From the IMG/VR virus record IMGVR_UViG_3300024265_000007, positions 1-51,993 of that record: a DNA stretch of 51,993 bases; one strand, given 5' to 3'. Both the position numbers and the translations under genes were made by a program. This stretch comes from a virus. The notes below the pieces were generated by a model, which was not told the origin of the DNA, searched no databases, and saw nothing but the letters and a program-made list of their open reading frames with translations. This document shows, piece by piece, positions 1 through 51,993 of the stretch (position 1 is its first letter; each line of letters starts with the position of its first letter).

Positions 1-127
1 AATCTACTTGGATGCTTTTGCCATCGACCAATTCATAACAAGCGCCCAAATCATCATCCAATTGCCAATAATAATTTAGATTATTCCACCTACCGTAATC
101 CAAGATATATTGACGAGCGTAAGAGAT
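1..127. repeat. Terminal direct repeat, left copy (circular closure overlap)
   Basis: These 127 bases are identical to the last 127 bases of the window. An exact 127-base end overlap is what a de Bruijn assembler with k=127 leaves when a circular graph is cut, so I read it as an assembly overlap rather than a biological terminal repeat. It means the map is closed and the coding frame crossing it is continuous. Confidence 0.95.
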
Positions 128-1648
128 TCCTTGCCCCGATAACGGTAAACTTAATATTTCGGCTTCTGGGTATTCTAATCTATATTCATCAATTTCATCT
201 GGTTCCACTACTAAAGTATAACCAATGCCTTGTTTATCCAGGCGTGATGGTGTTGTGGCTATACCGGCCCGTCCTTTTGATAATATGAATATTGTATATT
301 GTATTGTTTTTGATGGTTCTTGGTGTCCTGTAATCAATTCGGCAACACTCTCAATATGCCGTCCCTCTTCAACAAACGGCTTATTATAAGCATATATCAC
401 ATTCCCATCACCATCTAATCGCAAAGGCACTAGCACACCCCCAAAGTACCGGGACGGGCTTGCCCATGATTTTGTGTTATTCCAAGTGTCAAGCAAGAAA
501 TCATACATACTTTGGTATTGCCGTTTGGCACGTTCTCTAGTTGTGCCAGAATTAAATCCTATTGCTTTTTTGAACCCCAATTCTTTTGACCATGCCGCCT
601 TATCTGCAATATCATCCCATGACACCACACCGTTGCGCTTGGCTATCAAAATCGCCTCTGCAAAATGCCCGCGTACATAATTACCCAACACGCCATCGCT
701 CGGCAAGCCACAACAGCCAGCATCGCAACTCTTTTCTTTGTGGTGGGCATCACTCACAAATAACTTCAGGTTATACCGCTCGACAAGCTCCTGCATGTGT
801 TCAACATAGGGACGTTTCAAATCATAATTAAGTCGCATATAGCCGGGTGTTTTGGAGTGCCGCCTATAGTATTGGAATAGATTGTAACCGCACTGCCCAC
901 TAATTGCATCATACCTGATGTGGTGGTTTGGTGTGGTGCGTTTTTCTATACAAAGAAACTCCAAGCTCACAGAAAAAGCGCCGTTATCTGCCGCCTGTTG
1001 GAATAACTCATCTACACACAAATCAGACACCCCAATAATGTAAGGCCTCAATCGTAATGTAACACGATTAGCGCCCAATAACTCCGATGCCTTCCGCATG
1101 GCTTCAAAACGTTCTGACGGCGTTGCACAACCCGCCTCCAATACACTTGCCTTCTGCTCATCCGTCGTAATGATAGTGAATTTGATATGCACATTATCAG
1201 CACCGCGCAACACATCAATATATTCAGGGTCATCTAGCCACCACGCACCTTTAGTGCTGATAGAAATAGGATAATTGATCTCGCAGAAAAACCTTAGTAA
1301 TTCCAATGATTTACGAAATCGCTGCTCATACCAGTCGAAAGCATCGGACAAACCACCCCACTGCATCACATAACGCTTTTTAACATATGGGAAAAATTGT
1401 TCGTAGGCAGTACCCACTAGACTTTCGTCCATTGTGAATATTTTTTTAACTTTTTCAACATCAACCGACTTTACCTTGTGGTGCAAATAATCTTTTGCGC
1501 TTTTGCCTACTGCCCGTTGGAAAAACGAAAAACAATACAGGCATTGATGGGCGCAATTAGAGTATGTATCAAATGACAGCGGCATGGAACAATCGGTAAT
1601 CTCTGTTGACCATCTAGGCGATTGGTAATAACCTTTATCCAAATCCAT
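1..1648 (-). CDS. Radical SAM-TAGT glycosyltransferase fusion, N-terminal part (continues at the right end of the window)
   Basis: Joined across the end overlap, this frame is open for 705 codons: ATG at 1648, through position 1, on from 51866, stop at 51397. The first half is a radical SAM enzyme: cluster motif CAHQCLYC with Cys32, Cys36 and Cys39 (CX3CX2C), then GGLSD at 98-102. Radical SAM enzymes use a 4Fe-4S cluster and S-adenosylmethionine to make a radical. The second half starts near residue 450 with SKGRAG (457-462), VVEP (480-483) and WQLDDD (Asp531-533). I recognise these as hallmarks of the TET/JBP-associated glycosyltransferase (TAGT) family of phage DNA-modification operons. The start overlaps the end of the ParB-like gene by 14 nt, so the two are probably translationally coupled. 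Inference: the protein modifies DNA bases and then glycosylates them. The exact chemistry is unknown. Confidence 0.85.
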   Translation of the reverse strand, partial: MDLDKGYYQSPRWSTEITDCSMPLSFDTYSNCAHQCLYCFSFFQRAVGKSAKDYLHHKVKSVDVEKVKKIFTMDESLVGTAYEQFFPYVKKRYVMQWGGLSDAFDWYEQRFRKSLELLRFFCEINYPISISTKGAWWLDDPEYIDVLRGADNVHIKFTIITTDEQKASVLEAGCATPSERFEAMRKASELLGANRVTLRLRPYIIGVSDLCVDELFQQAADNGAFSVSLEFLCIEKRTTPNHHIRYDAISGQCGYNLFQYYRRHSKTPGYMRLNYDLKRPYVEHMQELVERYNLKLFVSDAHHKEKSCDAGCCGLPSDGVLGNYVRGHFAEAILIAKRNGVVSWDDIADKAAWSKELGFKKAIGFNSGTTRERAKRQYQSMYDFLLDTWNNTKSWASPSRYFGGVLVPLRLDGDGNVIYAYNKPFVEEGRHIESVAELITGHQEPSKTIQYTIFILSKGRAGIATTPSRLDKQGIGYTLVVEPDEIDEYRLEYPEAEILSLPLSGQGISYARQYILDYGRWNNLNYYWQLDDDLGACYELVDGKSIQVD

Positions 1649-2327
1649 TATCCCACCTATCTATAAACTTGTCGCCGTCAATTTGCGACTTGCGTGCCCC
1701 TTCATGGGCAATGAAGCCATTGCGTTCACCATAAGTCAATATCTTGAGTGCGCGACTTAAATCGTCTCGTGTCTTGAATGTCACATATAGTAAGTGGGCA
1801 TCATTCAGATCGCCTTCCGGTATATCAGGCAATTGATTAGTGTCAAACACCCTATCACCCAAATCAGCCAACAACTCATCCAAATCATCAGCATTAAACG
1901 AACTCGATCCAATCGCAATCTCATCACTATTGGCAAACTCCTGTAATAGTTCCGCCAGGGCAACCGGGTCATCTATACCACTGCGCTGAATATGGTTAAT
2001 TGCCAATCCAAACGCATCAGATTGTAAATCATCCATTTCTGATATATCCAACATGGCCACCTGCCATGTGCCATTCTCCACACGTAGACAACCGGAAGGT
2101 ATCTTGCACTTATCAGGATGCCAACCATCGGCGCGTAAGTTAGTGAGCGCCATGATTGAATGGTTGCCCGCCTTGACAATACCGCGCCATAGGTGACAGG
2201 TGTCATTGAACCCGTGCGTAGAAATACTGTGCATTATTTTCCCGATGTCGCCTTCGTTTGGGTTGCGTTCCCACAACTTGAGGGTTTTAATATCCACCCA
2301 TTTTGTTGGGCTACCATCATGTTCCAT
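1635..2327 (-). CDS. ParB/Srx-fold domain protein, first gene of the late operon
   Basis: The protein has 230 aa. Residues about 8-65 look like the ParB/sulfiredoxin domain: a WVDIKTLKLWERNPN start, a SISTHGF helix, and VKAGNHSIMAL where ParB proteins normally have a G-x-H-R-x-x-A motif; here Ser replaces the Arg. The C-terminal 90 residues are unassigned. The ATG has a GGAG site 7 nt upstream and lies about 17 nt from a predicted start site. ParB-like proteins next to TAGT or TET/JBP enzymes are described in phage base-modification operons, so I infer a role in targeting or processing DNA for the fusion enzyme encoded next, not plasmid partitioning (no ParA is present). Confidence 0.7.
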   Translation of the reverse strand: MEHDGSPTKWVDIKTLKLWERNPNEGDIGKIMHSISTHGFNDTCHLWRGIVKAGNHSIMALTNLRADGWHPDKCKIPSGCLRVENGTWQVAMLDISEMDDLQSDAFGLAINHIQRSGIDDPVALAELLQEFANSDEIAIGSSSFNADDLDELLADLGDRVFDTNQLPDIPEGDLNDAHLLYVTFKTRDDLSRALKILTYGERNGFIAHEGARKSQIDGDKFIDRWDNGFG

Positions 2328-3306: not shown

Positions 3307-3897
3307 ATGCGTAAGCCAAAGGTATTAAAAACCGATGAGGCATTAGCATATATAGCTAAGCGGATAGGTTCAAACAAAAGATATAATTTCCACCACATGG
3401 ATACTTGGCGGCGACATGGGCGTATTAAACCATATGAAAGAGTCCTATATGTTGGAAACGTTTACACTATAAGAAGCCTGAACGCATTGGCCGATACGCT
3501 TCCGAAACCATCGCCCAACCCCGAATTGGAGAGTGCAACCCGCGCAGAGCTTATAAGCATATTGCCCAATACCTTGACCGATGCCGAATGGCAAAATGCT
3601 CTCAATTACTTTAATGGCTGCTGTGCTGTATGCGGTAGGCAGTTGAACGATATGTTTGGGCAATTTAGAGCGGCAAAAGATCATTGGATACCATTACAGC
3701 ATGGCAAGGACAACCCCGGCACGGTTGTAAAGAACATTGTTCCATTATGTCATGGTGTTGGAGGATGTAATAACCGTAAATATATTTCAATGCCTAACGA
3801 ATGGTTAAAGCGCAAATTTGGAAGGCGCAAGGCGAAACAGATAGCAGCACGAGTGCAAGCATATTTCGATAGTTTAGTACAGGAGAAACAAACATGA
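3307..3897 (+). CDS. HNH endonuclease with N-terminal DNA-binding domain
   Basis: The 196-aa protein has an N-terminal segment of about 65 residues that looks like a small helix-turn-helix (TDEALAYIAKRI... MDTWRRHGRIKPYE). A C-terminal HNH nuclease (about 100-195) follows: CCAVCGRQL, the central DHWIP, PLCHGVGGCNN with its zinc-binding cysteines, and NEWLKRKF. HNH enzymes nick or cut DNA with one metal ion. Its C-terminal 95 residues closely resemble those of the HNH protein at 43478, but the N-termini are unrelated. It is probably a free-standing homing-type endonuclease. It overlaps the next gene by 4 nt (ATGA). Confidence 0.85.
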   Translation: MRKPKVLKTDEALAYIAKRIGSNKRYNFHHMDTWRRHGRIKPYERVLYVGNVYTIRSLNALADTLPKPSPNPELESATRAELISILPNTLTDAEWQNALNYFNGCCAVCGRQLNDMFGQFRAAKDHWIPLQHGKDNPGTVVKNIVPLCHGVGGCNNRKYISMPNEWLKRKFGRRKAKQIAARVQAYFDSLVQEKQT

Positions 3898-5958: not shown

Positions 5959-6705
5959 ATGAATACATATCTTGCATATAGCGGTGGCAAGGACAGTACC
6001 GCTATGGCGTTGTTAATGCCCGATGCGATTCCGGTGTTTACTGATACAGGCTGGGAATTTGATGAAATCTATAACCAGATGGATAAATTCGAGGAAGTAA
6101 CCGGACGGGAAATAATACGCATTGTTCCAGATGAAACTTTACCGGAATATATCAGACGTTCAAAATTTTTGCCAGGGCATCGGGCACGATTCTGTACACG
6201 AATTTTTAAGATAGAACAGTATAATACCTGGATTGCTTTACAAGCTGCGAAAAACAAACATGTGGATATGTGTATTGGGCTGAGGGCTGATGAAGATAAA
6301 AGAGTTGGTAATATATCGGAAATTGAAGGTGTGAATATCCGTTATCCGTTACAAGAAAAGGGGGTCGATAAATTTGAAGTTATTAGAACATGCTTGGATT
6401 ATAACCTTTTACCTCGCTATCCTGTTTATATGGCTCGTGGTGGGTGTAAGGGATGTTACTACAAGCGCAAGGCAGAAGTTAAGGCGATGGTGCAATTATG
6501 TCCCGATGTGTTGGATGGATTACAGGACATAGAGGAAGAAGTCCAAGACGAACGCGGGCGATTTGCATTCATGTTTCCCAATATCAACATGAGTATTCGA
6601 GATTTGCGGCGGCAACCAGCGTTATTCGATATGACAGAAGTTTATCAGAGCGCCTCGCAACGTGCCGATTACGGGCGCAATTGCGGCGCATTTTGCGGAA
6701 GGTAA
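5959..6705 (+). CDS. PAPS reductase / N-type ATP pyrophosphatase family protein
   Basis: The 248-aa protein opens with the PP-loop AYSGGKDST (residues 6-14) that binds ATP in the adenine-nucleotide alpha-hydrolase superfamily, including PAPS reductase, DndC and tRNA-thiolation enzymes. A conserved FTDTGWEFDE strand follows at about 32-41. GGCKGCYYKRKAEV (about 161-174) gives a Cys pair typical of the phage members. A strong GAGGAG site precedes the ATG. Phages often carry such genes, with debated roles (sulfur transfer, nucleotide activation). Because this phage also has a base-modification operon, a role in making a modified nucleotide is possible but unproven. Confidence 0.8.
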   Translation: MNTYLAYSGGKDSTAMALLMPDAIPVFTDTGWEFDEIYNQMDKFEEVTGREIIRIVPDETLPEYIRRSKFLPGHRARFCTRIFKIEQYNTWIALQAAKNKHVDMCIGLRADEDKRVGNISEIEGVNIRYPLQEKGVDKFEVIRTCLDYNLLPRYPVYMARGGCKGCYYKRKAEVKAMVQLCPDVLDGLQDIEEEVQDERGRFAFMFPNINMSIRDLRRQPALFDMTEVYQSASQRADYGRNCGAFCGR

Positions 6706-43477: not shown

Positions 43478-44098
43478 ATGAGTGAAGATAAAAAACAATG
43501 TGTCAAATGCAATGAGTGGAAAGCCATTGATGCGTTTTATGTGCAAAGGCGTTGGTGTAAGCAATGTGTTATTGCTAAAAACACAGCCAAGAAAAAAACA
43601 TGGGCAGCACGCGCTGAAAATAAGGAACGTAGAAAAGCGTATGACCGGGATTATCGCAATCAACCAAAGAATAAAAAACAAAAACGGCTACTTGCAAAAA
43701 AGCGGGGCCCTGCACCATACGATAAGTTACAAAACATAATAAAACGACATAATTACCAGGCCAGAAAAGCTGGATTGCCATATACATTAACAACCGAACA
43801 ATGGCAACATGCTTTGAATTATTTCAATGGGTGTTGTGCTGTTTGTGAGCGTCAACTAAATGACATGTTTGGGGAGTTTACAAAAAGTGCCGATCACTGG
43901 ATACCGCTCAGTTATGAAGGTGGCGATAATCCCGGTACAGTTGCGGAGAATATCATACCGCTTTGTCATGGTGTTGATGGGTGTAATAATTCCAAAGGCG
44001 CAACTCTGCCGATGGAATGGTTACAACAAAAGTTTAGCAGATACAAATCTAAGAAGATAATAGATAAAATACAAAAATATTTCGATAGCCTGAGTTAG
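43478..44098 (+). CDS. HNH endonuclease on the opposite strand inside the late block
   Basis: The 206-aa protein has an N-terminal zinc ribbon (CVKCNEWK, CKQCVIAK), a very basic linker, then an HNH domain (about 110-205) with CCAVCERQL, DHWIPLSY and PLCHGVDGCNN. This domain closely matches that of the HNH protein at 3307. It is the only plus-strand gene among late genes, sits between two leftward terminators and has its own promoter, as expected of a selfish free-standing endonuclease. Its 3' end forms part of the terminator at 44076. Confidence 0.85.
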   Translation: MSEDKKQCVKCNEWKAIDAFYVQRRWCKQCVIAKNTAKKKTWAARAENKERRKAYDRDYRNQPKNKKQKRLLAKKRGPAPYDKLQNIIKRHNYQARKAGLPYTLTTEQWQHALNYFNGCCAVCERQLNDMFGEFTKSADHWIPLSYEGGDNPGTVAENIIPLCHGVDGCNNSKGATLPMEWLQQKFSRYKSKKIIDKIQKYFDSLS

Positions 44099-45733: not shown

Positions 45734-46108
45734 TTACTCCTCAAACAATTCTGTCAATGGACGGGATATATCATCCGGCTTTGATTCTTGTGCTTTCAAC
45801 AATTTCATATTCTTTGCAAACCTAGCTTTGTAGACTTCAACCATCCGCAAATCAGAAGCTATAGTGTCTTTAATTTCAGCTATTGAATCTTCGTGTGTGT
45901 TGAGTCTTATCTTTTCTTTACTATACCAAGGGTCACTCTCTACATCCTCATATTTATAAAGATGTGAGTTATCGTTTAACTCTTTTCTGATTAGCGAACA
46001 GAGTTCCCCGCTATCATATTCATCGTTTACTTCAACATGTTCTCCAGCGTCATCTATCCAGATAAGCATTACTTCGTTATCTACAAAATATTGACTTGTT
46101 ATTTTCAT
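45734..46108 (-). CDS. Hypothetical acidic protein (124 aa), first of the accessory block
   Basis: ATGA overlap with the portal fusion stop sets the start at 46108, behind AGGGGG. Strongly acidic first half (WIDDAGEHVEVNDEYDSGE) and a coiled-coil second half (DLRMVEVYKARFAKNMKLLKAQE). It could be a scaffold-like or DNA-mimic protein, but no family is recognised. Confidence 0.55.
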   Translation of the reverse strand: MKITSQYFVDNEVMLIWIDDAGEHVEVNDEYDSGELCSLIRKELNDNSHLYKYEDVESDPWYSKEKIRLNTHEDSIAEIKDTIASDLRMVEVYKARFAKNMKLLKAQESKPDDISRPLTELFEE

Positions 46109-48978
46109 TTTGTACCCCCTGCAATTAACTCTTTCATCAATTCCATAATGCTCTTTGTGATGAGCTTCAACTTGCCGCGTGCCTTCGCTTTCACCGGCAC
46201 TAGGTTGCAGTCGCAATTGTCGCCATGACAGGCCAGTGTATCGCTCTGCGGCATTGCGCCTATTTTTACCCAATGCTTGAAGCGGTGGCGTTGGCCGTTG
46301 TAGCCCGAACAGCTTTTACAATGAATCTCGGTTTTTCCAAGGACCCATTCGGACATCTTGTTGCCACCGGCACTGGCGAATCCCGCATCATACATTGGCT
46401 TGACACTCTTATTGTACCATTGAGCGCCTTTACCTTGCGAACTTGTCAGCTTTTCTGATTTTACCGTTCCCAGCAAACTAGTCACGAATTGCGATTGTTC
46501 GGAGATAAACTGGTTTATCTCTACTTGTTCGGCATCGGTTGGCTCTTCGCCCAGAGCGCCGCCGTCGGTTAATCCGTCCCGATATACCTTGTTATTGGCT
46601 TTGCGAATGATACTCCGCAGCGTGGAACTAGCTTGTCGCCGTGTTGTCTTGCCGTCAATGTGGACTTGCAGCGTGTCCTCGAAGTCATCCTCGAAATCAA
46701 TTCGGGTTGCCTGAACGGACTTGATCGCTACCCAGTCCTTAACCATCCCAAAGATAGACTTGACTGTCAGCCCAGATTCTGTCTTGTTGTAACCTTTGAA
46801 CGATTCAATTACTGTGTCTGCAATATCACCGCGAGTGTAATTCGGCTCAAACTTTGGCAGGGACTTTAGTCCGTTTGCACCGCGCCGTTTGATAAACGTA
46901 TACCAAGCATCAAGTTCTTTTTGCGCCTTCTCTACCGACCAGTCCCAATTATCGACAGTCGATTGCGAACGCGCCATAACTGCCTTGACGCAAACCAGAT
47001 TTGACTTTTGGCCAACAACATGAAACTCATCATAATATTCCCGTCCGTAAACAACCCGATCAATCCCCAGAACAAACGGTTCAATCTCAATATCGGGAAT
47101 AGTGACCTCGTTCGGAATATAGGCCATTGTGATGTGAGGATGATAATCGTTCGGGTTGCTATGTTCAGATAATTCCATTCCCTTAAACTTGTCAAATATC
47201 TGGGACTGCAATCTGTCTAATGCAACCGAATTATTGACCACTAAATGGAGGGCTTGCCCATTATCAGTATCGAATATTCCCACTTCTTTAATCTCAAGTG
47301 GATTATCATCCAGCTTAAATTCGTCTATTGAATTGATCGTGCGTGCATCTAATTCCCGATCTGATATGTCCGGGGCATAGACCAATGTTACATGAAAGGT
47401 GTCCGGTTCTTGCCATTCAATATCGGCGGATTCCCCAATGATGCCTTTGATCTTGCGTTGGATTGCCAATAGTTCGTCCCGCTCTGCTAAGTCGATATAG
47501 ACGTATGCTGACTTGTCCTGCGCCTTCGCTTTCAGTGACTCAGGCTCAGTTGGCGAAAAAGGGGGCGGATCATTACCTTCCGGTGGTAAGTCTGGCAAAT
47601 CGCCACCTTCAACATCAGAAGTCTGTGCGACTACCGCCGCTTCTTCTGGCGTTCCACCGGCAACAAAACCGGACTTCAGGTCTTCAGGTGAAACAAAGAC
47701 CATGCCCGGTTGCACCATTAACAGATTGCCACGCTCCTCTTCAAATGGCTCTAATTTTTGCCGCTTCCTTGCTTCATTGATTGTGATGATTGTATTCTGT
47801 AAATTCCTCCCGGCAATCTCCGCTTCGCGGAGGTCATTCTCACTCACCCGGTCAAACTCAGAGCGGTCTACTACTAACCTATCCAGATGATATTCGGGAG
47901 GTAGTAGCGGAATAATACGACGATTGAAAAATGCGATAATGTCATCGGCGCGCGGGATAATATTGCTAGTATAGAAGCGGTAGGTTGTCTCGTCACCTTG
48001 CTTGTATCCTGCTATATCGCTATTACCCAGCATTGTTTCCGGTACGCCAAACTGATTTAATATTCGCTCACCTGTCTTTTGCGAATAGGAGGTGATTGCG
48101 CTATAATCAGGATAATCTAATTTTGTAACCTCAACATCGCCCGGCCAAAATATAAGGCCACCAACGTTTTCGGGTCCGCGTGACCTCTTTTTTGCATCTT
48201 CCAGCCCTTCGCGTGTCGCCTGTAAATTACTAAACGAGCCACCTTTTGACGAGACGACTCCCATGCCCTGAATGCCGTTTTGGAAATGAGATACAACTGA
48301 TGTCTGGATAGCGAAATCAATTTCCAGACTTTCCAGGACGGCCAGCACATCAGGGTAGCCGCGTAAATCATCTTGAGGATTGTAGCCATGCTTATAGGCA
48401 ATCTCGAACGGTTTATACGTCTCTGGACTGCCAGTGTCAAACGGTGAATAGAAATACTGATTGACTTTCCCATTGGACGCATTAAGAGACACCCCCAGTG
48501 GATTCAGCCAGTCAAGGGCGAGCAGGGGATTATATTTACTGACTGGATAATCATCACGCTTGCGAACGAGTTCAATATACAATTCGTCAAATAGTGTGAG
48601 GGAGGCCGCCACACGGAACAGGAGCGACATATGTTGATGGTCTTCATAGGCATGGAACAGTTGGAAGAGGGGATGCTGGGGAATAGGATCGTCACTTCTA
48701 GCAACTTCTGTGCCCTCCCATTTATCATTAGCTCCGGTCATGCCCCGTTCAAATCGTTTGATTGAATAGGGCAGGGTGTTTATGCCGGACGCGATTAGCT
48801 CCACACATTTTTCCACATAGCCGATCACGATATATGCTTGGGCCGCACCCCATTTTGTACGCGATAATTGATCCCCTCTATTAGCAGCGTTTACCCAGGG
48901 AGCAAGGGGCGACCAGGTGCCCAGGTCGATTGATTTCTGCACGGTGCTTGGCCGCTTTGTTTTAGTATTCCATTTCAT
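46105..48978 (-). CDS. Portal-2H phosphoesterase-MuF triple fusion protein
   Basis: A 957-aa protein. Residues about 1-430 are an HK97-type portal (WVNAANRGDQLSRTKWG, QHPLFQLF, GVPETMLGNSDIAGY). After a Pro/Asp-rich linker (455-480), residues about 488-656 form a 2H phosphoesterase: FHVTLVYAP (His529, Thr531) and PHITMAYIP (His615, Thr617), both HxT motifs intact. 2H enzymes cleave 2',3'- or 3',5'-cyclic phosphates in RNA and signalling nucleotides. Residues about 670-930 look like a MuF/gp7-type head protein with a terminal Cys/His cluster (EIHCKSCSGYNG, ACHGDNCDC). MuF domains face the capsid inside, so the enzyme could be packaged. Portal-MuF fusions are known; the 2H insertion is unusual to me. 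Confidence 0.85.
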   Translation of the reverse strand: MKWNTKTKRPSTVQKSIDLGTWSPLAPWVNAANRGDQLSRTKWGAAQAYIVIGYVEKCVELIASGINTLPYSIKRFERGMTGANDKWEGTEVARSDDPIPQHPLFQLFHAYEDHQHMSLLFRVAASLTLFDELYIELVRKRDDYPVSKYNPLLALDWLNPLGVSLNASNGKVNQYFYSPFDTGSPETYKPFEIAYKHGYNPQDDLRGYPDVLAVLESLEIDFAIQTSVVSHFQNGIQGMGVVSSKGGSFSNLQATREGLEDAKKRSRGPENVGGLIFWPGDVEVTKLDYPDYSAITSYSQKTGERILNQFGVPETMLGNSDIAGYKQGDETTYRFYTSNIIPRADDIIAFFNRRIIPLLPPEYHLDRLVVDRSEFDRVSENDLREAEIAGRNLQNTIITINEARKRQKLEPFEEERGNLLMVQPGMVFVSPEDLKSGFVAGGTPEEAAVVAQTSDVEGGDLPDLPPEGNDPPPFSPTEPESLKAKAQDKSAYVYIDLAERDELLAIQRKIKGIIGESADIEWQEPDTFHVTLVYAPDISDRELDARTINSIDEFKLDDNPLEIKEVGIFDTDNGQALHLVVNNSVALDRLQSQIFDKFKGMELSEHSNPNDYHPHITMAYIPNEVTIPDIEIEPFVLGIDRVVYGREYYDEFHVVGQKSNLVCVKAVMARSQSTVDNWDWSVEKAQKELDAWYTFIKRRGANGLKSLPKFEPNYTRGDIADTVIESFKGYNKTESGLTVKSIFGMVKDWVAIKSVQATRIDFEDDFEDTLQVHIDGKTTRRQASSTLRSIIRKANNKVYRDGLTDGGALGEEPTDAEQVEINQFISEQSQFVTSLLGTVKSEKLTSSQGKGAQWYNKSVKPMYDAGFASAGGNKMSEWVLGKTEIHCKSCSGYNGQRHRFKHWVKIGAMPQSDTLACHGDNCDCNLVPVKAKARGKLKLITKSIMELMKELIAGGTK

Positions 48979-49229: not shown

Positions 49230-50732
49230 CTATTCAAAACTCACCATTGCGATATAGGCCAGTGCCCCGCCGATTACAGTATCATCATGTCCACCGCTCG
49301 GCGCTGAATAGCTGTACATGCCTGTAGTTGTGCGTTTGGTTTCGTAGGTCACATGTTCTCGCTTCTGTGTATCATCGTCAAGTAACGCATAGCCGTGGTC
49401 TTCCAACCCGGTGCGATAGAAGGTAATTAACTCGTGTTTGTTGACAGCCCCCATAGTGAATGGTTTTAACTCACAATACCAAACACCAAAATCAGGGCGA
49501 TACACTATGCACTCATCTGATAGTATATCATAAGTATCTACCAAGTGGCGAATGTACCAATTCATGATATTGCTGATAGGGATAGGGCTGCCCCCACTAA
49601 ACCGTATTTCATACCCATCATCGCCCAGGGTGATTACATTATCAGGTTCTATCAATTGCCCCCACTGCTCTTTTTTGAAAGCAGACACCACGGCCAATTC
49701 AGCCACAAGTTGTTCAATGCTATCCCAAAGACTTTCGATCTGACTACTGCCCATTGAGTTTTTCTCAGGCACAACACAGCGTATCCGGTAACGCAATAGC
49801 TGTTTCAGCATTTCGTCGCGCATAATTGACCAACGTTGTTTGCGCCAGCGACCTAAGAACACTTGACGGTTAGCGATTCTGTCTGGAATTGACAAGACGC
49901 TAAAGTCATTGTCCTGCCCCCAGTCGATGCCGGCGGCATAGATATGTTCCGGGTCGTATTCCGGCCAGTCGTCAAGGAAGGTTATACGGCGTGCATCAAA
50001 TACCCCACCACTATCGGAAATGAACTGCGCTTCAATCTCTTCAGTGTAATCGTCTGGGGTCATATCCTTTATGAGTAATCGCAATGCCCCTTCGGATAAA
50101 TGCGGGTTGGAAAGCGTGCTGAAATTCCAAGTCTTCCAATCCTCGTTATCATCCTCACTGGCGTAATTGAATAACTCGAAAAACCAATTGAAACCTTTCG
50201 GTGTGCTGTAAAACTCTGCTACACCATTACGGGCTACCAACATCGGCATTCCAACCTTTTTCCATGCCTTCGAGTCAAGGTAGGCACATTCATCTAAAAT
50301 CAACTTATCGACGTTGCCACCGCGCAAAGCGTCAGGGTTCTTGCCGGTCTTCACTCGTATTCGCCCGCCACGATATTTGATAATACGCCGACCTTCATTC
50401 TTATAGAAGCCGGGTGTATCGTATAGGGGCGCAAGCCAGTCAGTGATGTAATCCCAAAACAAGTCAGATTGATCTTGGGTCGTACTTGAGATGTGAACAT
50501 GAGCGCCGTCTAACAATCCACGCCCACCGTACTGTTCGCCACCGATAGCCGACATGGAGGCCATCATCGTCTTGCCCACCTGTCTGCCCGCGGCCACGAC
50601 TTTACGCATAGCAGGCGACAACAATATATCGCTCTGTTTCTCATGTGGTGTTGGCAGATTAGGAAGCAATGACACTGTGTCACTTTCACTCCCATCTAAC
50701 CTATCATTGAACGCCTGAAGATATGAGGACAT
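49230..50732 (-). CDS. terL: Terminase large subunit
   Basis: ATPase motor for DNA packaging. Walker A AGRQVGKT (about residues 48-55), Walker B LILDECAYL (about 142-150) with the catalytic Glu, and a C-terminal RNase H-like nuclease with GIDWGQDNDFSVLSI, PEKNSMGSSQ and GGHDDTVIGGALA carrying the metal-binding acidic residues. About 500 aa is normal. The start is uncertain: ATG 50732 (used) or ATG 50777, both with weak ribosome sites and both inside the TerS gene. Confidence 0.9.
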   Translation of the reverse strand: MSSYLQAFNDRLDGSESDTVSLLPNLPTPHEKQSDILLSPAMRKVVAAGRQVGKTMMASMSAIGGEQYGGRGLLDGAHVHISSTTQDQSDLFWDYITDWLAPLYDTPGFYKNEGRRIIKYRGGRIRVKTGKNPDALRGGNVDKLILDECAYLDSKAWKKVGMPMLVARNGVAEFYSTPKGFNWFFELFNYASEDDNEDWKTWNFSTLSNPHLSEGALRLLIKDMTPDDYTEEIEAQFISDSGGVFDARRITFLDDWPEYDPEHIYAAGIDWGQDNDFSVLSIPDRIANRQVFLGRWRKQRWSIMRDEMLKQLLRYRIRCVVPEKNSMGSSQIESLWDSIEQLVAELAVVSAFKKEQWGQLIEPDNVITLGDDGYEIRFSGGSPIPISNIMNWYIRHLVDTYDILSDECIVYRPDFGVWYCELKPFTMGAVNKHELITFYRTGLEDHGYALLDDDTQKREHVTYETKRTTTGMYSYSAPSGGHDDTVIGGALAYIAMVSFE

Positions 50733-51342
50733 CAATCCCGCTTGAGATTTTCGCTCTGATTTTATTATCTGTAACATTTTCCATTACCACATTCGCTATA
50801 GCAGCCACTAATAACATGACCTGCTCTGATGCCACCTTCAAATCGGCATCATTCAGTATTTTATTTTCCATCGAAACCAACCGGGCCCGTTCCTGTAATA
50901 ACCCGCGTATTTCATCCCAATTGATATAATCCATAAAGCCACGCTTTGTAATCTCATCAAGCGCTTGTGTTGCCTTGATTGTCTCCATAGCATCACCGGC
51001 GCTCATTGCTTTTTGTTGGTCTAAGTACGTACTGCGAACCATACCCCATAATTTGCCGATAGGGCCGGTATCAATATTTTCTATCGTCTCCGCAATCCGT
51101 GTGTCCAACAAAGCAATGTCAGATCGAAGGCTCAATAATTCCGGGTTGCTAATCGCCTCCTGATACTTATCTGCTAATCGTGTTGGTAAGTTGCGGCTAT
51201 GCCCTTTGCCTTTGTAATGCACACTTGCCTTGCCGGTTGGCGTTGCGCCGCCATGCACCCAACAAACATCCTTGCCTGTAATGCGATCCCGGCGACAAGG
51301 CTTTCCTGTGCTTTTTGTTTTCTGCACTTTGCATTTAGCCAC
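50704..51342 (-). CDS. terS: Terminase small subunit
   Basis: The GTG at 51342 is preferred because GGGGAG lies 10 nt upstream; the frame extends to 51360. The N-terminus has CRRDRITGKDVCWVHGGATPTG, a Cys/His motif followed by HGG found in some phage small terminases, which may bind zinc or DNA. The rest is helical, suited to ring assembly. It immediately precedes TerL and recognises the packaging site. Stop of the glycosyltransferase fusion lies 54 nt upstream. Confidence 0.75.
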   Translation of the reverse strand: MAKCKVQKTKSTGKPCRRDRITGKDVCWVHGGATPTGKASVHYKGKGHSRNLPTRLADKYQEAISNPELLSLRSDIALLDTRIAETIENIDTGPIGKLWGMVRSTYLDQQKAMSAGDAMETIKATQALDEITKRGFMDYINWDEIRGLLQERARLVSMENKILNDADLKVASEQVMLLVAAIANVVMENVTDNKIRAKISSGIDVLISSGVQ

Positions 51343-51396
51343 TATGAGGTATCTCCCCACTTTGAGGTCTATTGCCTAATTTATCCCATGCTGCGT

Positions 51397-51993
51397 TCAT
51401 TCGCTGCGCTCCGGCTTCTTAATTTCAGGTATCGCCTTAAATTGCTTCCAGTCAATAACCACATCAACTCGCCCATATTTATTAACAATTTTACAAATCT
51501 CTTCACCCCATTCGTTTACAAATTTATGGGATATATCAACATCAATGCTATCCTCATACAATGGGGTTAAGCCTCCAGGTTGCCGACTTTTAATATGGCG
51601 ATAATTAATTGCATATTTCTGAACACAAACAATATGCTCGCCTGTTGTCAAAATTTGTAGGCAAAAATCAATATCCTCTTTAGTATCAAATTCTGCCCTA
51701 TAATTACATTGATGCCGCGTAGATGTTAGAACACAACTGTATACTCTGGTGTTGAAACGATATGGCTTTTGATGCTCATCTCGCAAAAATGATTTTGCTT
51801 CTATGCCGGCCAATGCTACATCATATTTACTTGTTAATGTTTCTGTGTATCCTAGCACAATACTGAAATCTACTTGGATGCTTTTGCCATCGACCAATTC
51901 ATAACAAGCGCCCAAATCATCATCCAATTGCCAATAATAATTTAGATTATTCCACCTACCGTAATCCAAGATATATTGACGAGCGTAAGAGAT
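51397..51993 (-). CDS. Radical SAM-TAGT fusion, C-terminal part (TAGT glycosyltransferase domain)
   Basis: C-terminal end of the gene that begins at 1648; the first 127 bases here repeat 1-127. It completes the glycosyltransferase: WQLDDDLG (Asp531-533, the GT-A metal/sugar-nucleotide site), NTRVYSC (588-594), KEDIDFCLQIL (612-622, with the acidic pair) and QPGGLTPLYED. This set is characteristic of the TET/JBP-associated glycosyltransferases, which add sugars to hydroxylated DNA bases. Annotating the linear contig would give a false 190-aa protein with a TTG start. The radical SAM half is described under 1-1648. Confidence 0.85.
   Translation of the reverse strand: MSYARQYILDYGRWNNLNYYWQLDDDLGACYELVDGKSIQVDFSIVLGYTETLTSKYDVALAGIEAKSFLRDEHQKPYRFNTRVYSCVLTSTRHQCNYRAEFDTKEDIDFCLQILTTGEHIVCVQKYAINYRHIKSRQPGGLTPLYEDSIDVDISHKFVNEWGEEICKIVNKYGRVDVVIDWKQFKAIPEIKKPERSE
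51867..51993. repeat. Terminal direct repeat, right copy (circular closure overlap)
   Basis: Identical to bases 1-127. The unit genome is therefore 51,866 bp. The repeat lies wholly inside the radical SAM-TAGT coding frame, which supports an assembly overlap rather than physical ends. Confidence 0.95.

Follow-up and report, generated by a model that had tools for sequence, protein, structure and literature searches.

We analysed a window of 51,993 nt, which is the whole of the viral record IMGVR_UViG_3300024265_000007. Bases 1-127 are repeated exactly at 51867-51993, and this 127-bp terminal overlap (127 is a word length common in assemblers) closes the window into a circle of 51,866 bp, so that the window is a complete circular genome. 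Its ends fall within a single minus-strand gene whose frame, joined across the overlap, encodes 705 aa followed by a stop codon. This gene and its neighbours are arranged as follows.

1..127, no strand: terminal overlap, left copy, identical to the right copy
51867..51993, no strand: terminal overlap, right copy, identical to the left copy
1..1648, minus: first 549 codons of the radical SAM-TAGT fusion gene, ATG at 1648 (translation, motif check)
344-1648, minus: radical SAM domain, residues ~1-435 (weak Pfam Radical_SAM match; AlphaFold on residues 1-440)
1532..1555, minus: CAHQCLYC, the CX3CX2C radical SAM cluster motif (C32, C36, C39), invariant in 40 aligned relatives
1-298, minus: start of the TAGT domain, from residue 451 (Pfam TAGT)
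51397..51993, minus: last 198 codons of the fusion gene, residues 508-705, stop at 51397 (joined frame)
within 51397..51993, minus: remainder of the TAGT domain, to residue 647 at ~51574 (Pfam TAGT 451-647)
1635..2327, minus: ParB-like gene (phrog_723, E = 1.9e-15)
50704..51360, minus: next downstream gene, in the place of the small terminase of relatives (position; phrog matches weak)
49230..50777, minus: large terminase, in the same direction as the fusion operon (Pfam Terminase_6N, 1.4e-11; phrog_2)

The contig cut does split the fusion gene, as would be expected if the fusion were an artefact of joining the contig ends, but the overlap is exact and contiguous fusions were found independently in other phages. 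One of these (L104), on a separate contig, can be aligned with the joined protein from residue 2 to residue 670 and thus spans the window junction; its full uninterrupted ORF, in L123, encodes 729 aa. Because the same two-domain gene is contiguous in separate phage contigs, we take the join to be real and rejected an assembly artefact, the probability of which we regard as negligible. A preliminary description of this DNA, made from its letters alone, had likewise joined the ends into one 705-codon frame, and its motif assignments stand: the cluster cysteines are Cys32/36/39 within CAHQCLYC (residues 32-39), and the C-terminal domain carries SKGRAG (457), VVEP (480), LDDD (530), NTRVYSC (588) and EDIDF (613).

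Domains of the fusion protein

The N-terminal half is modelled as a radical SAM fold. AlphaFold, run on residues 1-440 with 40 aligned sequences, gave a pLDDT of 94.7; the six best PDB fold matches were all spore photoproduct lyase (E ~4e-7, TMt ~0.6), and nearly all of the ~30 matches at E<=0.001 were radical SAM enzymes. Invariant residues among the 40 aligned sequences include P11, R12, C20, C32, C36, C39, C312 and C313, of which C20, C312 and C313 are possible counterparts of the hydrogen-donor cysteine (C140/C141) of spore photoproduct lyase. The Pfam Radical_SAM match (PF04055) was weak, at 22.7 bits against a gathering cut-off of 29.5, and the gp053 protein of phage M6 also scored below this cut-off (22.2 bits). 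The nearest NCBIfam matches of residues 1-435 were the PA0069/Rv2578c families (E = 2.6e-17, well under their cut-offs), while a sequence search of the PDB (phmmer, then profile) returned no radical SAM relative and no spore photoproduct lyase, so that fold comparison alone produced matches there. The earlier assignment of a radical SAM domain is therefore upheld by the cysteine motif and the predicted fold, despite the weak Pfam score.

The C-terminal domain matches Pfam TAGT (PF20691) over residues 451-647 and profile positions 1-204 of 205, with 96.5 bits against a cut-off of 27.5 (E = 2.8e-27), and also matches phrog_842 (E 3.8e-31), in agreement with the C-terminal TAGT originally proposed. 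The TAGT family has been described (PMC13216743). Because the ends of the record cut through the TAGT half of the window protein, the fold was read from the fused relative L104/L123, whose TAGT domain was predicted with a pLDDT of 85 and has GT-A glycosyltransferases as its top PDB matches. The check proposed at the outset, namely whether the C-terminal half falls within the GT-A/TAGT fold, thus gave a positive answer as read on the relative's domain. A single MAFFT alignment of stand-alone TAGTs together with the fusions misplaced the TAGTs on the radical SAM half and was dropped for prediction.

Neighbouring genes

The end of the ParB-like gene overlaps the start of the fusion gene by 14 nt in the window, and the two genes are likely co-translated. 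An HMM built from the ParB genes that adjoin the radical SAM gene in relatives matches the window's ParB-like gene (E 2.3e-20). ParB-like genes occur at 72 viral loci among the matches listed and at 27/31 bacterial loci. Terminase and portal genes lie downstream of the fusion, as in many relatives, in which the gene order is radical SAM, small terminase, large terminase.

Other genes in the window have features of their own. The 957-aa portal protein (46105-48978, minus) has a C-terminal 2H phosphoesterase / LigT domain, an unusual portal fusion, and this domain also weakly matches the anti-CBASS protein Acb1 (E 1.7e-4). A PAPS-reductase-family protein (5959-6705, plus; Pfam 6.1e-10, phrog_424 1.9e-34) is possibly another modification or sulfur gene. 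Two plus-strand genes (3307-3897 and 43478-44098) share a Cys-rich C-terminal region (CCAVCxRQLNDMFG...) with an HNH nuclease-like look.

Distribution of the family and its partner genes

A motif-based DNA pattern scan of IMG/VR, in which 119/120 listed loci hold a significant relative, places the phage radical SAM family at no fewer than 119 IMG/VR loci. Scanning bacterial genomes yielded 31 further loci, mostly in Bacteroidales, Clostridia, Selenomonadaceae and other gut or rumen anaerobes; they include isolates, and cultured Bacteroides fragilis S82 and Selenomonas ruminantium S137 hold the module in its kinase form (see below). Stand-alone members are ~420 aa long. Among the matches listed, a separate TAGT gene lies near the radical SAM gene at 43 loci, mostly directly upstream of it and usually overlapping it by a few nt, and TAGT is fused to the radical SAM domain at six loci, not counting the window. 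Five of these six, like the window, have the TAGT at the C-terminus (L104, L040, L046/L055 and L016, the last with partial TAGT sequence only), and one (L026) has the reverse architecture with an N-terminal TAGT. On the radical SAM tree, the window and the other C-terminal fusions group with two unfused rows in a single starred clade, and L026 falls elsewhere, which indicates that the fusion arose at least twice.

Searching IMG/VR proteins with automatic peptides from the N-terminal 549 aa gave no match. In INPHARED, tblastn returned TAGT relatives only and no entry matching both halves, and a stand-alone family member used as query gave just three weak matches; the radical SAM family therefore appears to be rare among deposited phages. 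In one further relative (L076 / G036:33719-34243), the TAGT frame contains seven in-frame TGA codons and the radical SAM gene is broken by stops under table 11; judging from its sequence, this phage probably reads TGA as an amino acid.

Two sets of partner genes accompany the family. In the first, a TAGT is often accompanied by a cytidylyltransferase-like enzyme, by a HAD/phosphotransferase protein or by a further radical SAM protein of the SPASM type. The second pairs a P-loop kinase with a helical protein, and a GNAT acetyltransferase is often present too. By its Pfam match the helical protein is an amino acid:DNA transferase (ADDT; E = 3.5e-20 in L123 and 9.5e-18 in L125), like M6 gp051, and M6 gp054 is a relative of the kinases. 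A stand-alone TAGT is seldom found with kinase/ADDT at viral loci (1/29 vs 24/45, p = 3.6e-6, uncorrected for relatedness), and the bacterial loci gave 0/9 vs 15/22 (p = 8e-4, likewise uncorrected). Three fused phages carry both sets (L040, L046/L125 and L104/L123). TAGT and kinase/ADDT partners are swapped repeatedly throughout the radical SAM tree, which argues that the radical SAM reaction precedes decoration.

Several smaller associations were also seen. Short MetK-like proteins (SAM synthetase N-terminal) adjoin the radical SAM gene at ~15 viral loci listed (L010, L037, L133, L141 and others), occur with either partner set and could perhaps supply SAM. A protein with a class II glutamine amidotransferase domain adjoins ADDT in L123 (15555-16190, minus), L125 (10468-11112, plus) and L127 (5499-6116, plus), and is possibly an ammonia source for base modification. 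At L146, L149, L150 and related loci, genes for a HAD phosphatase/kinase and a heptose- or glycerol-phosphate nucleotidyltransferase lie directly before the TAGT gene, which suggests a dedicated nucleotide-sugar donor.

The preliminary description had suggested that the fusion, as a single protein, would be a new route to hypermodification. Our survey recasts it as one variant of a common module made up of radical SAM, ParB and either TAGT or kinase/ADDT. These putative DNA-decorating gene clusters are widespread but little described; most belong to viruses whose hosts are gut microbes living without oxygen, and they appear to lack the usual means of preparing a base for a sugar. Phage DNA hypermodification, TAGT, ADDT and radical SAM steps are each known already; the literature searched held no account of a radical SAM-TAGT fusion or of a radical SAM-ParB core, and Iyer 2013 and Lee 2022, both of which lay outside its scope, could mention parts.

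Source of the acceptor group

The well-known routes to glycosylated or otherwise hypermodified phage DNA begin with a hydroxymethylated nucleotide or with oxygen-using TET/JBP enzymes. A hydroxymethylase of the thymidylate synthase type (PF00303) was found in 0/43 family-bearing records, with M6 positive as control. The Tet_JBP model, for which the 14 named genomes held no positive control, matched 2/43 of these records (L012 and L052), in both cases beside ParB, radical SAM and TAGT genes. ThyX-like proteins, which might make hydroxymethyl-dUMP, were present in 4/24 records searched. Terminal overlaps mark 8/30 of the records whose ends were checked as probably complete.

The window, as a complete genome, gave no match to PF00303, Tet_JBP, ThyX or ADDT, and none to the kinase or ADDT models built from relatives. 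No DNA polymerase family was detected by Pfam among its ORFs longer than ~140 aa, a scan that passed over a few small genes evidently for nucleases or zinc-binding proteins. Taken together, these findings make a post-replicative step on DNA likely and point to the radical SAM half as the strongest candidate for the acceptor-forming enzyme; the host or an unrecognised enzyme may supply the acceptor instead.

The two TET/JBP-bearing relatives (L012, 4992-5462, and the L052 region; G002:43200-43670, G010:31808-32278) have this gene next to ParB, radical SAM, TAGT and a second SPASM radical SAM gene, and from their sequences they are predicted to unite oxidation, radical chemistry and glycosylation in one cluster. 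The original suggestion that the radical SAM domain replaces TET/JBP accordingly fares unevenly: it gains circumstantial support from the window and 41/43 records without TET/JBP and from 43/43 without hydroxymethylase, and loses some from these two relatives, where the radical SAM gene adjoins TET/JBP. The broader link that had been drawn to DNA-base hypermodification is supported by the TAGT, ADDT, kinase, TET/JBP and ParB neighbours.

Proposed activity and alternatives

On balance, we favour the view that the gene encodes a single bifunctional enzyme for DNA-base hypermodification, whose radical SAM half functionalises the base and whose TAGT half glycosylates it. Gene content suggests that the radical SAM half probably makes the acceptor group on which the TAGT acts. 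In the proposed sequence of events, a 5'-deoxyadenosyl radical generated in the spore photoproduct lyase-like domain would functionalise a base in already replicated phage DNA by abstracting a hydrogen, probably from thymine, on which spore photoproduct lyase also acts; the base would gain a hydroxyl or similar acceptor without the use of oxygen. The GT-A-fold TAGT domain would then transfer a sugar to this acceptor, with a nucleotide sugar as donor. The ParB-like protein encoded alongside may load or regulate the enzyme on DNA. From the domain identities and folds, the genuine fusion, the conserved operon with ParB, the exchange of partners and the failure to detect hydroxymethylase, TET/JBP, kinase or ADDT in this complete genome, we infer that the protein works on DNA, that its target base is thymine, which step comes first, what ParB does and what kind of reaction takes place, be it hydroxylation, alkylation or another.

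The main rival holds that the radical SAM half acts late, as in M6, and rearranges or edits a group already on the base (as an M6-like isomerase or a sugar editor), the hydroxyl coming from the host or from an unrecognised phage enzyme. The family and M6 gp053 both match phrog_13321 and are profile-aligned over 176 columns that include the cysteine motif (hhalign 95.5%), a remote relationship, and the M6 protein, according to Lee et al. in 2022, is reportedly an isomerase that acts after amino-acid attachment rather than the maker of the hydroxyl. In three phages with the fusion (L040, L046/L125 and L104/L123), ADDT and kinase genes lie in the neighbourhood, so that the radical SAM domain could act late there. 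However, the window and most TAGT-type relatives are without the ADDT or kinase needed to make the isomerase substrate, and the hydroxymethylase is absent from all 43 records. The same radical SAM lineages, moreover, switch between TAGT and kinase/ADDT, which makes the bare base the more likely common substrate. We therefore consider late action rather unlikely, at perhaps a chance in four, and still ahead of the two readings that follow.

Radical SAM and GT-A folds are common to many enzymes that act on tRNA, nucleotides or proteins, and the names of the closest NCBIfam families (PA0069, Rv2578c) specify no substrate, which leaves room for a protein that works away from DNA bases in a DNA-modification setting that is incidental. 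This is improbable, given that the informative neighbours all point to DNA (TAGT, ADDT, ParB-like proteins, kinases akin to the one for 5-hmdU in M6, the terminase downstream and, in two relatives, TET/JBP) and that the nearest solved fold works on thymine in DNA. The fold match to spore photoproduct lyase could instead mean that the radical SAM half is a DNA-repair enzyme of this type, with the TAGT as a separate activity on the same polypeptide. Here the conserved linkage is to hypermodification genes and not to repair genes, the decorating partners are exchanged, and the PDB lyases have no sequence match to the radical SAM half, so that we judge a repair role very improbable.

Returning to the bifunctional base-modifying enzyme, we tentatively raise a wider possibility, which we hold with less conviction: that a wide range of phage DNA hypermodification systems in anaerobes starts, independently of oxygen, with a spore photoproduct lyase-like radical SAM protein. 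This protein would functionalise thymine, or another base, directly in DNA, replacing TET/JBP or nucleotide-level hydroxymethylation and feeding interchangeable TAGT or kinase plus ADDT, and the window protein would perform both steps. The hosts named, which are those of relatives rather than of the window, are mostly anaerobes, and radical SAM chemistry would suit such hosts because oxygen-using TET/JBP could not work there. If a radical SAM start is correct, phages of oxygen-free hosts could decorate their DNA after replication, the service of one radical SAM lineage to both sugar and amino-acid decoration would be explained, and a new DNA-editing chemistry would be supplied.

Comparison with known systems

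Spore photoproduct lyase, a radical SAM enzyme that acts on thymine in DNA, is the nearest solved fold to the window's radical SAM half, but the two share ~14% identity with no match at the sequence level, and the window family has a different gene setting. The T6 beta-glucosyl-HMC-alpha-glucosyltransferase (TAGT, phrog_842) belongs to the same family as the window's C-terminal domain. It is a single-domain enzyme that acts on hmC that is already glucosylated (PMC13216743), whereas the window TAGT is fused to a radical SAM domain and no hydroxymethylase was found in the window.

M6 DNA contains 5-(2-aminoethyl)deoxyuridine, made via 5hmdU and a 5hmdU DNA kinase (PMC6449724). This thymidine hypermodification resembles the present system in its related radical SAM protein and in the kinase (hhalign 98.9%) and ADDT that many relatives carry. 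It differs in that the window has a TAGT in place of the kinase and ADDT, and in that M6 has a hydroxymethylase of the thymidylate synthase type, which the records of the 43 relatives do not.

Phage TET/JBP-TAGT operons, reportedly described by Iyer et al. in 2013, are said to carry out base oxidation and glycosylation. The window has a TAGT and a ParB-like neighbour in common with them, and L012 and L052 have TET/JBP, ParB, radical SAM and TAGT genes side by side. TET/JBP itself is missing from the window and from 41/43 relatives' records; the constant partner is instead the spore photoproduct lyase-like radical SAM protein, which in the window is fused to the TAGT.
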